A stretch of 49,206 nt of DNA, from positions 1 through 49,206 of the forward strand of contig PNOJ01000008.1 of the NCBI GenBank assembly GCA_013824755.1, given 5' to 3'. The stretch comes from Gemmatimonas sp. Lineage in GTDB: Bacteria; Krumholzibacteriota; Krumholzibacteriia; LZORAL124-64-63. The translations under genes and the position numbers were made by a program. The notes below the pieces were generated by a model. It was not told the origin of the DNA. It worked only from the letters and a program-made list of their open reading frames with translations, and did not search any database. Shown in pieces: positions 38,064 to 42,997 of this stretch; positions within the stretch are counted from its first letter, which is position 1; each line of letters opens with the position of its first letter.

Positions 38064-39560
38064 TCAGTCGAGCGCGGCGGCCGGCAGTTCGAAGCGGAAG
38101 GTCGTGCCGCCGCCCACGCGGCTCTCCACGGTCAGCGCGGCGCCGTGGCCCGTCACGATCTGGTGGGCGATCGCCAGGCCGAGCCCGGAACCCGTGTTGC
38201 CGCCACGGCTCTTGTCGACGGTGTAGAAACGCTCGAAGACGTGGGGCAGGTCCTCGTTCCCGATCCCGATGCCCGTGTCCCCGACCTCGATGCCCACCCC
38301 CGCGGCGGCGCCCCGCAGCGAGACGCGCACCTCGCCGCCGGGGCGATTGAACTTGATCGCGTTGTCCGCCAGGTTCTGCAGCACCTGGCCGATGCGCAGC
38401 GGGTCGGCGAAGATCAGCGGCAGCCCGGCCTCGGCGTCGAGGGTCAGCGTGACCCCGGCGGCCCGGGCCTGCGGATCGAGGCGGCCCAGCACGTCCGCGG
38501 CCAGTTCCTCGAGGGAGAACGCCTCGCGGCGGTACTCGGCTTGGCCGCTCTCGAGGCGGGTCAGCTCGAAGAGCCGCTCGATCAGGCCTTCCAGGTTGTC
38601 CAGGTTCGAGGTGATGGTGCGCAGGTGGCGTTCGCGCTCCGCATCGGTGAGATCCTGGCCGCGCAGGGTCAGCGTCTCGACGTAGCCGCGCAGCGAGGCC
38701 ATGGGCGTGCGCAGGTCGTGGGAGATGTTGGCCGTCAGCTGACGGCGGTAGTCCTCGGACTGGCGCAGGCGGCCGATGACGCCCGTCAGGCGGTCCGCCA
38801 TGCTGTTGAAGCTGCGCTCCAGCGCCCCGATCTCGTCGGCGGCGCGGCCGCGGGCGCGGTGCTCGAAGTCGCCGTCGCGAAAGGCGGCCAGGTCACGCGA
38901 CAGCGCGCGGATGCGGCGGCTGACCCAGGTCAGGATCACCAGCCCGCCCAGGAAGGACGACAGCAGGATGGCGGCGGCGCCGCGCAGGTTGCGGGTGCGC
39001 TCGTCGTGCTCGATCTCCTCCATCGAGATGTTCAGGGGCCGGAAGCTCGAGACCAGCCAGGCGTCGGGCGCGGCCGTCGAGTCGCCGTCGGCGAAGATCG
39101 GCACCACGCCGTTGATGCGGTTCTCGTAGGCGTCGATGGCGGCGGGGTAGGGGTAGCTCTCGAAATCCCAGTCCTCGGCGGTCATCGAGTCCAGCAGGGT
39201 CGGGCTCACGTAGACCAGCACGCGGCTGAGGCTGTCGGGCATGGTCGTGTGGAGCACCAGGCCGTCGGGGCCGATCAGCGCGACCTCGGCGTCGAATCCG
39301 CGGACGGCCTGGCCGTAGGCGGCCAGGGCGCTCGCGGTCGCGGTGCTGTCGGCGAACAGCGGCGTCATGTGGACGGCCAGGCTCTCGGCCTCGGCCTCGC
39401 GCCGGTTGTCGTACCACTCCTCCTCGCCGGGCAGCCAGAGCGCCTGGTTCATCGAATACTCGATCCACCAGGAGTAGGTCAGGAACACGACCGACAGCAG
39501 CGCCAGGAACAGCAGGGCGATGCGGAAGTGCAGGGTGCGGTGGAAGGTCCAGCGGCTCAT
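38064..39560 (-). CDS. Sensor histidine kinase (HAMP, HisKA, HATPase)
   Basis: N-terminal TM/periplasmic region; ANISHDLRTPMASLRGYVETL; NLADNAIKFNRPGG; GDTGIGIG; GSGLGLAIAHQIV. Confidence 0.93.
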   Translation of the reverse strand: MSRWTFHRTLHFRIALLFLALLSVVFLTYSWWIEYSMNQALWLPGEEEWYDNRREAEAESLAVHMTPLFADSTATASALAAYGQAVRGFDAEVALIGPDGLVLHTTMPDSLSRVLVYVSPTLLDSMTAEDWDFESYPYPAAIDAYENRINGVVPIFADGDSTAAPDAWLVSSFRPLNISMEEIEHDERTRNLRGAAAILLSSFLGGLVILTWVSRRIRALSRDLAAFRDGDFEHRARGRAADEIGALERSFNSMADRLTGVIGRLRQSEDYRRQLTANISHDLRTPMASLRGYVETLTLRGQDLTDAERERHLRTITSNLDNLEGLIERLFELTRLESGQAEYRREAFSLEELAADVLGRLDPQARAAGVTLTLDAEAGLPLIFADPLRIGQVLQNLADNAIKFNRPGGEVRVSLRGAAAGVGIEVGDTGIGIGNEDLPHVFERFYTVDKSRGGNTGSGLGLAIAHQIVTGHGAALTVESRVGGGTTFRFELPAAALD

Positions 39561-39621: not shown

Positions 39622-40341
39622 TCAGAATTCGTCGGTGAAGCGGTAGCCGATGCCCCACACCGTCAGGATGTAGCGGGGCCGGTTCGGGTTGGCTTCGATC
39701 TTGCCGCGCAGCCGGTTCACGTGCGAGTTGACGGTGTGCTCGTAGACGTCGGAATCCTGGTCCCACACCTGGTCGAGCAGCTGGGTCCGCGAGAAGGTCC
39801 GCCCGGGCCGCGCGGCCAGGGTGTAGAGCAGGTCGTATTCCTTCAGCGTCAGCTGGACCGGTTCGCCGCGCACGCTGACCCGCCGCTTGGTGTGGTCGAT
39901 GCTCAGCTCGCCGAGCTCGAGCACCAGGTCCTGCTCGCTGCCCCGCGCGATGCTGCGCGCCAGCTCGATGCGCCGCTGCAGCACCTTCAGCCGCGCGGTC
40001 AGCTCGCGAAGGCTGAAGGGCTTGGTCATGTAGTCGTCGCAGCCCAGCTCCAGGCCGAGGACCTTGTCCGCCTCCTCGCCGCGCGCGGTGAGCATGAGGA
40101 TGGGCACCTGACGGTCGCCGGCCCTGATCTCCCGCAGCACGTCCAGGCCCGACATCGCGGGCAGCATCCAGTCCAGCACCACGGCCGACCATTCCGACGC
40201 GGCGAAGGCCTCGAGCCCGCGGTGCCCGTCGTGCGCCGCCGTCACGTCGTAGCCCTCGCCCTGCAGGTGCAGGGTGATCAGGTCGATGAGGTCGCGGTCG
40301 TCCTCGATCAGCAGGATCCGCCGCCTGGCCGTCTCGCTCAC
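39622..40341 (-). CDS. OmpR/PhoB-family response regulator
   Basis: GTG start; RRRILLIEDDRDLIDLI; VVLDWMLPAMSGLDVL; KPF; C-terminal winged helix TLKEYDLLYTLAARPGRTFSRTQLLDQVWDQ...VWGIGYRF. Confidence 0.93.
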   Translation of the reverse strand: MSETARRRILLIEDDRDLIDLITLHLQGEGYDVTAAHDGHRGLEAFAASEWSAVVLDWMLPAMSGLDVLREIRAGDRQVPILMLTARGEEADKVLGLELGCDDYMTKPFSLRELTARLKVLQRRIELARSIARGSEQDLVLELGELSIDHTKRRVSVRGEPVQLTLKEYDLLYTLAARPGRTFSRTQLLDQVWDQDSDVYEHTVNSHVNRLRGKIEANPNRPRYILTVWGIGYRFTDEF

Positions 40342-40460
40342 GTCGGTCCTTTCCGCAGCCGTTGCGCCGCCATCCTCAAGTGTAACACGGCCCGAGGGCG
40401 CCTGTCTGCCGGATAGCGGGCTCCGCGACGGCCGGGAAAGCGACGGGAATAGGTCCTGAA

Positions 40461-40493
40461 GATTTGACTCCTTCGTGACGGATCCGTGACGGT
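40461..40493. promoter_or_regulatory. Three tandem 11-bp repeats with TGAC core (PhoB-box-like)
   Basis: GATTTGACTCC|TTCGTGACGGA|TCCGTGACGGT; TGAC at 40465, 40476 and 40487, exactly 11 bp apart; the last two units share CGTGACGG. Confidence 0.65.
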
Positions 40494-40500
40494 CGCCACG

Positions 40501-40506
40501 TATGAT
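40501..40506 (+). promoter_or_regulatory. Candidate -10 element
   Basis: TATGAT 7 bp downstream of the tandem repeats; no good -35, as expected for an activator-dependent promoter. Confidence 0.5.
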
Positions 40507-40512
40507 GACCCC

Positions 40513-40643
40513 AGTGAAGTTTCCTCCCGGCCGCCGATCGCGGCGGCACTCCGGGAGTGCAGGCTCGGACCGGGACATGGGCCTCGCCCGCGACCCGGAT
40601 CCAAGACACGGGGCCACCGGCGGGGGTAGCCCCGTGTTCTTTT
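40513..40643 (+). ncRNA. Candidate small RNA or structured leader with three hairpins
   Basis: CTCCCGGCCGCCG-ATCG-CGGCGG(CACT)CCGGGAG; GGACCGGG-acat-GGGC-ctc-GCCC-gcga-CCCGGATCC; ACACGGGGC...GCCCCGTGT-TCTTTT. 5' end inferred from the -10. Confidence 0.5.
40606..40643 (+). terminator. Intrinsic terminator of the candidate sRNA/leader
   Basis: ACACGGGGC/GCCCCGTGT 9-bp stem followed by TTCTTTT. Confidence 0.8.
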
Positions 40644-40814
40644 CCCCCCGACCCGCCATCCCTGCCGATTCCCGGGGCAACCGGGGCGCCTCGCCGCCGT
40701 AGAGCAGCGCTCGCGGGCGCCGTCGAGCGGGCTTGCTTCCGGGGCGGCGCTGCCCTAAGCTACCGCGCGGCTGGACGATCGGCCCCGCCACCGACCCACG
40801 GCGAAAGGACGCCC

Positions 40815-41747
40815 ATGGCATCGGCCTTCCTGCACGTGAACGACCTCGGCAAGAGCTACGGCCAGGTGCGCGCCGTGGACGGGATCTCGCTCGAGATCCC
40901 GAAGGGCAGCATCTACGGCTTCCTGGGCCCCAACGGGTCCGGCAAGACGACCACGATCCGCTGCATCATGAACATCATCCTGGCCGACCGCGGCGAGATC
41001 CTGTTCGACGGCCGGCCCCTGGACCGTCAGCTGCTGGACCGCGTCGGCTACCTGCCCGAAGAGAGGGGGCTCTACCGCAAGATGAAGTGCGCCGAACAGC
41101 TGGCCTTCCTGGCCACGCTCAAGTCGGTGCCGCGGAAGGAAGCCCAGCGCCGGGCCGAAGCCTGGCTCGAGCGGCTGGGCCTGGGCGAGTGGAAGGACCG
41201 CAAGGTCGACGCCCTGAGCAAGGGCATGCAGCAGAAGGTCCAGTTCGCGGCCACGTTCCTGTTCGAGCCGGACCTGGTGATCCTGGACGAGCCCTTCAGC
41301 GGGCTGGACCCCCTGAACGTCGAGACGATGCGCGACGTCATCCGCGAGCAGAACGCCCGCGGCTGCACCATCATCCTCTCGACCCACATGCTGGCCGAGG
41401 CGGAGAAGCTGTGCGACTCGGTCTGCCTGATCGAGGGCGGCCGCAAGGTGCTCGACGGCACCCTCGAGGCGGTGCGCACGGACTTCCCGCTGAAGTCGGT
41501 GCGGGTCGCCTACGCCGGCGGCAAGGAACCGCCCGCGCGGCTGCCGGGCATCGCCCACCGCGTGTTCCAGGACGACTCCTGGCGGCTGACCCTGGAATCC
41601 GGGGCGAGCACCGACGCGGTGCTCGACGCCCTGCGCGCCGCCGGCCAGCTCACCCTGTTCGCGGCCAACCGGCCCGCCCTGGACGAGATCTTCCTGAGCG
41701 TGGTGCGCGAGCGCCGCGCCGCCGCCGGAACGGAGGCCGCGTCGTGA
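40815..41747 (+). CDS. ABC transporter ATP-binding protein (NatA-like)
   Basis: FLGPNGSGKTTTIRCIM Walker A; LSKGMQQKVQFAATFLFEPDLVILDEPFSGLDP. Confidence 0.92.
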   Translation: MASAFLHVNDLGKSYGQVRAVDGISLEIPKGSIYGFLGPNGSGKTTTIRCIMNIILADRGEILFDGRPLDRQLLDRVGYLPEERGLYRKMKCAEQLAFLATLKSVPRKEAQRRAEAWLERLGLGEWKDRKVDALSKGMQQKVQFAATFLFEPDLVILDEPFSGLDPLNVETMRDVIREQNARGCTIILSTHMLAEAEKLCDSVCLIEGGRKVLDGTLEAVRTDFPLKSVRVAYAGGKEPPARLPGIAHRVFQDDSWRLTLESGASTDAVLDALRAAGQLTLFAANRPALDEIFLSVVRERRAAAGTEAAS

Positions 41748-42997
41748 AAATGCTCGCCATCATCCGCCGTGAATACCTCGAGCGCGTCCGCACCAAGGGC
41801 TTCGTGATCAGCACGCTGCTGATCCCGCTGCTGATGGCCCTGGTCATGGTGTTGCCCATGCTCACCATGCAGTCGGTCGACACGCGCAACACCGTCGGCC
41901 TGATCGACCCCAGCGGGGAGTACTTCGCGCATCTGGACGCGGCCCTGTCCTCCCAGGAGGACCTGCACGTCTCGCTGATCCCGTTGCCGGTCGCCGGCGG
42001 CGACGTCGCGTCCGCGACGGCGAGCATGCAGGACCAGATCCGCGACGAGAGCCTCGACGGCGGCGTCGTCATCGGGGACGATTTCATCGGGACGCCGAAG
42101 GCCACCTACTACAGCCGCTCGGTCTCCGGCAGCATCGTGCGCGACGACCTGCAGCCGGCGCTGGACCGCGTGCTGCGCCAGGCGCGCTTCGCCCGGGTCG
42201 GGGTGCCGGACTCCCTGCACGCCTTCCTGTCCGAGCGCGTGGACTGGGAGTCGCTGTCGGTGGGCGACACCGGCGAGGCGACCCGCCGCGACGAGGGCGG
42301 CGTCATGCTGCTGGCCTTCACGCTCATCATGATGCTCTACATGATGGTCCTGGTGTACGGCCAGCAGACCCTGACCGCGGTGATCGAGGAGAAGAGCAGC
42401 CGCGTGGTCGAGGTGCTGCTGTCCAGCGTGCCCTCCTCGCAGCTGATGTTCGGCAAGGTGGTGGGCATCGGCGGCGCCGGCCTGACGCAGGTGGCCATCT
42501 GGACCGCCGCGATCTTCGTCATGGCCGGCCAGGGGCTGAGCGTGGGCGGCCTCTCCTTCGACGCCTCCTACCTGACGCCGATGATCCTGGGCTCGTTCAT
42601 GGTCTTCTTCCTGCTGGGCTTCCTGCTGTTTTCGATGATGTACGCCGGCGTCGGCGCGCTGTGCAACACGATCCAGGAGGCGCAGCCCTTCGCCACGCCG
42701 ATCATGATGTTCGTGATCATCCCGATGATGCTCATGACCCTGGTGCTGCGCGCGCCCGGCAGCCCCCTGGCCACGGTGCTGAGCCTGATCCCGATGTTCT
42801 CGCCCATCCTGATGTTCATGCGGGTCTGCCTGGCCTCGCCGCCGCTCTGGCAGGTCGTGCTGTCGTGGGTGCTGATGAGCGCCACGATCTGGCTGATGTC
42901 GCGGGCCGCCGGGAAGCTGTTCCGCGTCGGCATCCTGATGAGCGGTTCGGCCCCCAACTGGGCGACGCTCGTCAGGACGCTCCGTCAGCCCGATTAG
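41744..42997 (+). CDS. ABC transporter permease (NatB-like ABC-2)
   Basis: KMLAIIRREYLERVRTKGFVISTLLIPL; VIEEKSSRVVEVLLSSVPSSQLMFGKVVGIG; GTGA overlap. Confidence 0.9.
   Translation: MKMLAIIRREYLERVRTKGFVISTLLIPLLMALVMVLPMLTMQSVDTRNTVGLIDPSGEYFAHLDAALSSQEDLHVSLIPLPVAGGDVASATASMQDQIRDESLDGGVVIGDDFIGTPKATYYSRSVSGSIVRDDLQPALDRVLRQARFARVGVPDSLHAFLSERVDWESLSVGDTGEATRRDEGGVMLLAFTLIMMLYMMVLVYGQQTLTAVIEEKSSRVVEVLLSSVPSSQLMFGKVVGIGGAGLTQVAIWTAAIFVMAGQGLSVGGLSFDASYLTPMILGSFMVFFLLGFLLFSMMYAGVGALCNTIQEAQPFATPIMMFVIIPMMLMTLVLRAPGSPLATVLSLIPMFSPILMFMRVCLASPPLWQVVLSWVLMSATIWLMSRAAGKLFRVGILMSGSAPNWATLVRTLRQPD

Follow-up and report, generated by a model that had tools for sequence, protein, structure and literature searches.

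A candidate response-regulator-controlled small RNA gene between a two-component system and an ABC exporter in Krumholzibacteriota

The window analysed here (49,206 nucleotides) is a whole contig (G000:C8) of a 2.46-Mb genome that is assembled in 103 contigs and is 83.7% complete. A histidine kinase and an OmpR/PhoB-family response regulator (RR) lie on its minus strand, followed by a 473-bp gap and, on the plus strand, by an ABC transporter ATPase and an ABC-2 permease (Table 1). The gap, which an initial annotation of the window had placed between the divergent RR and ATPase genes, indeed spans positions 40342-40814. The order of RR, gap and ABC ATPase was the same in all 30 family loci examined, and the kinase is also present in nearly all of them. 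Orthologs of the RR are at least 67% identical within the family, and beyond it the closest sequences, in a collection that spans 84,980 species, reach about 45% or less. The best NCBIfam match of the RR is PhoB, with 219.6 bits under a cut-off of 296.2. An assignment as PhoB was rejected on this score and because another RR of the same genome scores higher (243.3 bits, also below the cut-off), and membership of the locus in a PhoB regulon is likewise not indicated; no phosphate genes adjoin the RR studied here. The close relatives are metagenome-assembled genomes, and several members of the family bear the label Candidatus Krumholzibacteriota/Krumholzibacteriia. Two close relatives (L078, L079) carry the public labels Fibrobacter sp. 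and Latescibacterota and other family members the label Krumholzibacteriota, the labels probably being older or inconsistent.

Table 1. Genes and predicted elements at the locus, with the evidence for each.
Feature	Position	Strand	Evidence or remark
Histidine kinase (HAMP, HisKA, HATPase_c)	38064..39560	-	Pfam; syntenic in relatives
OmpR/PhoB-family response regulator	39622..40341	-	Pfam Response_reg + Trans_reg_C
Three 11-bp direct repeats TTTGACTCCTT/CGTGACGGATC/CGTGAC, predicted PhoB/OmpR-type operator	40463..40490	+	Sequence; GTGA-N7-GTGA, fixed spacing in relatives
-10 element TATGAT	40501..40506	+	11 bp after the last GTGA
Predicted 131-nt small RNA	40513..40643	+	Fold z -3.9; 96-100% identity in the genus, sharp borders
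Hairpin 1, holding the buried UUUCCUCCC (40520-40528)	40518..40565	+	Fold prediction
Hairpin 2, with compensatory changes	40567..40602	+	Covariation, genus alignment
Hairpin 3, intrinsic terminator with U tract	40605..40643 (stem-loop 40605-40638)	+	TTCTTTT to 40643; fold; covariation
Terminator loop GGCGGG, candidate seed	40619..40624	+	Retained by every copy found, in four genera; predicted to be fully unpaired
Predicted separate exporter promoter TTGCTT-N17-TAAGCT, sigma70-like	40733..40761	+	54 bp before the exporter start
ABC transporter ATPase	40815..41747	+	Pfam ABC_tran, DrrA1-3_C
ABC-2 permease	41744..42997	+	Pfam ABC2_membrane_3

Within the gap, the repeats TTTGAC, CGTGAC and CGTGAC start at 40463, 40474 and 40485, that is, in exact 11-bp steps, just upstream of a -10 element. 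The initial annotation had recognised this -10 (TATGAT), which stands, and had made no mention of the repeats. According to Blanco et al., as cited in PMC2648988, the DNA-binding domain of PhoB contacts two 11-bp direct repeats. No -35 match was found at the RNA promoter, as would be expected of an activator-dependent promoter. The arrangement GTGA-N7-GTGA-N11-(-10) recurs with identical spacing in the RR-exporter gap of 22 of 30 relatives, one of which (G030) has a single box mismatch. Across whole genomes, GTGA-N7-GTGA-N11-NATNNT matched 67 times in 38 genomes, compared with about 7 times for a reversed control, part of the 67 being conserved coding sequence and not promoters. With the -10 given as TANNNT, each of the four genus genomes holds exactly one match, which is the RNA promoter, against a control total of 1. 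A search that allowed one mismatch in a 15-mer box pattern was discarded as too loose, and in the genus it matched only scattered other sites. Judged by box and spacing, the RNA has a promoter of its own with a response-regulator-type operator, where an RR site is predicted; the body of the RNA is better conserved than the -10 of this promoter. In three relatives (G005, G017 and G022; L025, L026 and L043), a second box lies on the strand of the RR gene, 47-57 bp before its start, which suggests autoregulation. Thus, the RR of the locus is itself the likely binder of the box and the presumed activator of the RNA promoter. In addition, two genus members share a conserved near-box, GTGAYACTTNCGTTA, with GATGTCATCAYATCATT, also conserved, ahead of it (L056 ~1501, G000:C16:31678; L058 ~1501, G003:C59:6179), a possible further RR site with no -10 at the usual spacing.

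Downstream of this promoter, the predicted 131-nt RNA folds at -75.6 kcal/mol, compared with -60.1 +/- 4.0 kcal/mol for dinucleotide shuffles, none of which was as good (0 of 200). The single hairpins reach z scores of -2.7 to -3.8, and the following 131 nt of the same gap gave +2.1. The three consecutive stable hairpins followed by TTCTTTT that the initial annotation had described were recovered, and its estimate of a transcript of about 130 nt ending about 170 bp before the ABC gene agrees with the predicted length and with the 172 bp that separate the RNA from position 40815. From its sequence, the product is non-coding, falls within 50-250 nt and carries its own intrinsic terminator. A search with Rfam 15, 6S included, returned nothing that reached a gathering threshold, with no match in the window and none in the loci of 16 relatives (E <= 0.5).

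Conservation covers the RNA as one unit and breaks off sharply at its predicted start and at the terminator. Positions 40513-40643 are 100%, 97.7% and 96.2% identical in G001, G002 and G003, respectively, compared with 88, 89 and 67% for the 118 bp upstream, 69, 74 and 55% for the 82 bp downstream, and 77-97% at the fourfold sites of the two neighbouring genes across the same genomes. In G003, the difference is supported by Fisher p values of 1e-5 against the fourfold sites and 1e-14 against the flanks. The changes in G002 turn one G-C pair into A-U and add one new pair. For the two 3' hairpins, aligned from G000, G002, G003, G005 and G017, 97.8% of cells are paired and changes on both sides occur in 6 of 27 pairs against 2.6 in shuffles, none of 500 shuffles matching the score, in a sample of five sequences of which three are near-identical. 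We conclude from covariation, from a covariance model (R1) and from conservation in the genus that, at the level of sequence, the RNA is under selection as RNA.

The R1 model was built on the 3' half of the RNA, and its members occur in the RR-exporter gap only, in seven genomes of four genera (G000-G003, G005, G017 and G022); as such, a covariance search in relatives, which the initial annotation had proposed, did reveal conserved structure at the locus. Copies left out of model building scored 48.6, 43.3 and 34.4 bits, all in the RR-ABC gap, and nothing else exceeded 30 bits in 80 genomes of the class. Weak matches outside the gap (28.8 bits in G037 and 30 bits in G041) have unrelated surroundings and were taken as chance. 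All seven carriers fall in one clade of the RR tree, with support of 100/99, and three of them (G005, G017 and G022) carry extra tandem units of box, RNA and terminator, two or three per gap. The family is small, its seven genomes being mostly metagenome-assembled, and outside the genus the RNA sequence diverges fast. It would constitute a new RNA family of a known kind, namely small RNAs whose expression a two-component system activates.

We consider it probable that the locus holds an independent, RR-activated small-RNA gene whose product acts in trans, most likely by loop pairing with mRNAs. The histidine kinase would activate the adjacent OmpR/PhoB-type RR, which would then bind the direct repeats at 40463-40490 and recruit RNA polymerase to a promoter without a -35, thereby activating rather than repressing it. 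The polymerase would make the three-hairpin RNA and stop at the intrinsic terminator, and the RNA would pair through its exposed loops with target mRNAs, the first candidate for such pairing being the invariant GGCGGG terminator loop. The initial annotation had pointed to another segment, UUUCCUCCC, which it described as partly sequestered in hairpin 1 and able to pair with Shine-Dalgarno sequences. Its location in hairpin 1 holds, but it is almost fully rather than partly paired, with a mean unpaired probability of 0.03 predicted for the RNA of the window; in the G017 ortholog the segment is mostly open (0.76). With UUUCCUCCC predicted to be buried and its 10-nt perfect complement GGGAGGAAAC absent from the rest of the window's genome, pairing of this segment with Shine-Dalgarno sequences is a weak proposal and finds no support for this genome. 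The perfect complement of GUUUCCUCCC matches the RNA gene alone in the same genome, this simple complement search yielding no target. That outcome counts against the proposed reading, as does the fact that Hfq was not detected in the genus. GGCGGG, on the other hand, is open (~1.0 unpaired) in the predicted fold of every ortholog tested. The terminator stem covaries, yet all five primary copies have the same loop, ACCGGCGGGGGU, and the second copies retain GGCGGGG too. Since UUUCCUCCC is predicted to be closed in the window and GGCGGG to be open in every ortholog tested, we favour the terminator loop as seed, although with low confidence.

The same loop could instead serve a protein, since strict conservation of a loop above a stem that varies is typical of both protein sites and seeds, and the RNA might then be a CsrA-type sponge or a polymerase-binding RNA. 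RsmY and RsmZ titrate CsrA/RsmA. Unlike in their setting, however, no CsrA (PF02599) match was found in the window's genome, where at 83.7% completeness such an absence is not proof, and the GGA motifs of the RNA are located in stems; on both grounds we do not place it in the CsrA-titrating class of RsmY/Z and CsrB. Given also that Rfam, 6S included, returned nothing, we regard binding to a protein rather than to mRNAs as unlikely.

Similarly, the position of the RNA, directly upstream of the exporter, on the same strand and in a gene order kept in the 30 relatives examined, would suit a terminating leader or attenuator, in which transcripts begun at the box promoter continue into the ABC exporter only once the terminator opens. 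However, the exporter has a predicted promoter of its own (Table 1), and similar TTGCNN-N16/17-NATAAT promoters occur in many relatives, some of them beating nearly all shuffles. The one in the window matches 6 of 12 positions, which 15% of shuffles reach, and its case rests on conservation. Moreover, the stretch from terminator to exporter promoter is the least conserved of the gap (55-74%), the tandem box-RNA-terminator arrangements argue for separate units, some relatives with short gaps keep the exporter and lack the box-RNA-terminator unit, and no alternative anti-terminator fold is evident. The predicted, conserved promoter of the exporter makes a terminated leader improbable. As such, of the two alternatives that the initial annotation had left side by side, the independent small RNA has gained from the sharp borders, the covariation and the unique conserved box promoter, and the terminating leader has lost ground.

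It is also doubtful that the RNA is a functionless by-product of a box-promoter-terminator unit that insulates or tunes the divergent RR promoter. Between genera the RNA sequence is replaced rapidly and box and terminator persist, as such a unit would predict, but inside the genus both flanks and promoter are less conserved than the body of the RNA, hairpin 2 is preserved through compensatory changes, and the terminator loop is invariant, though any loop would terminate. A short mRNA for a small protein is very improbable and was rejected on the substitution pattern: although all four genus members have a 43-codon GTG frame (VKFPPGRR...) that runs uninterrupted along the RNA, this frame has no Shine-Dalgarno before it, most substitutions alter the amino acid and yet keep the base pairs, those in hairpin 2 being compensatory and not protein-like, and the RNAs of the relatives, with lengths of 117 and 181 nt, are divergent in sequence outside the hairpins.

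In the sister clade, the RR-exporter gap of 13 genomes (L027, L028, L030-L036, L038, L039, L042 and L203) holds, preceded by the same box, an RNA-like element that is conserved and unrelated. Its closing stem, AACCUGC...GCAGGUU (AACCUGCG...CGCAGGUU), hardly varies, G016 showing a compensatory A-U in it, and encloses an irregular hairpin of 107-134 nt, and a terminator-like hairpin comes next in several genomes; no Rfam match was found in the loci scanned. The fast divergence of the RNA outside the genus, together with this unrelated element in the same slot, means that selection could partly act on something besides RNA pairing. In addition, seven relatives have the box at promoter spacing ahead of secreted peptidases whose starts resemble signal peptides, namely S8 peptidases in G027, G020, G010, G011 and G058 (L195, L196, L197, L202 and L201) and C25 peptidases in G017 and G022 (L199 and L200), and the RR may therefore control extracellular proteolysis in the family. 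In the window's genus, the box is absent from the S8 peptidase ortholog. We also put forward a tentative proposal, with considerably less confidence than for the small-RNA gene: in the genus of the window, in which the searches detected neither Hfq nor CsrA (for Hfq, too, the genomes are incomplete and absence is not proof), the two-component system would act chiefly or only via the small RNA, and the corresponding slot would be filled in the family by two unrelated structured RNAs. If true, the GGCGGG-loop type in one clade and the AACCUGCG...CGCAGGUU long-hairpin type in its sister would represent a conserved control logic with a replaceable RNA output.

Neither Rfam nor a literature search that was not specific to small RNAs revealed a described small-RNA regulator for Krumholzibacteriota. 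The family described here is well delimited, and its defined promoter box, candidate seed loop and single predicted regulator make RR binding, induction and target capture directly testable. Regulator boxes at a fixed distance from a -10 in regulator-adjacent gaps might also offer a route to small RNAs in uncultured phyla.

Among known systems, the pho box of PhoB (PMC2648988) has 11-bp direct repeats in common with the box of the window, and PhoB is the best NCBIfam match of the RR, but the score below the cut-off, the higher-scoring second RR and the lack of adjacent phosphate genes set the locus apart. NfeR1 of Sinorhizobium, a small RNA that is repressed by NtrC and silences ntrBC (PMC10746234), is likewise part of a regulatory loop with a two-component system, but it belongs to the kind with an anti-Shine-Dalgarno motif, and here no such motif is exposed. 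In P. aeruginosa, GacAS is described as a two-component system with output through the small RNAs RsmY and RsmZ (PMC4132741), which is similar to the output proposed here, where the box signature marks the RNA promoter alone in the genus. Closest in layout are the CiaR-dependent csRNAs of streptococci (CiaRH), which have TTTAAG-N5-TTTAAG repeats with an 11-bp period 10 bp before the -10 and are structured RNAs of 51-202 nt with an intrinsic terminator and several copies per genome (PMC3091779). However, the box here reads GTGA-N7-GTGA and lies 11 bp from the -10, no sequence relation is known, the host is a high-GC member of the Krumholzibacteriota, the RNA adjoins its own two-component system, and the window genome offers no exposed anti-Shine-Dalgarno stretch; given the operator and the closed UUUCCUCCC, we do not count the RNA among the csRNAs. 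LhrC of Listeria is a LisRK-dependent, multicopy hairpin RNA whose target sites include the terminator loop (PMC4132741), and it shares with the RNA of the window the sensor-kinase system (predicted here), the multiple copies and the hairpins, whereas its sites are UCCC motifs and, in the RNA described here, it is a G-rich loop (GGCGGG) that is conserved and exposed, the C-rich motif lying buried. By analogy, the best reading is that this RNA would work like the streptococcal csRNAs or LhrC of Listeria.
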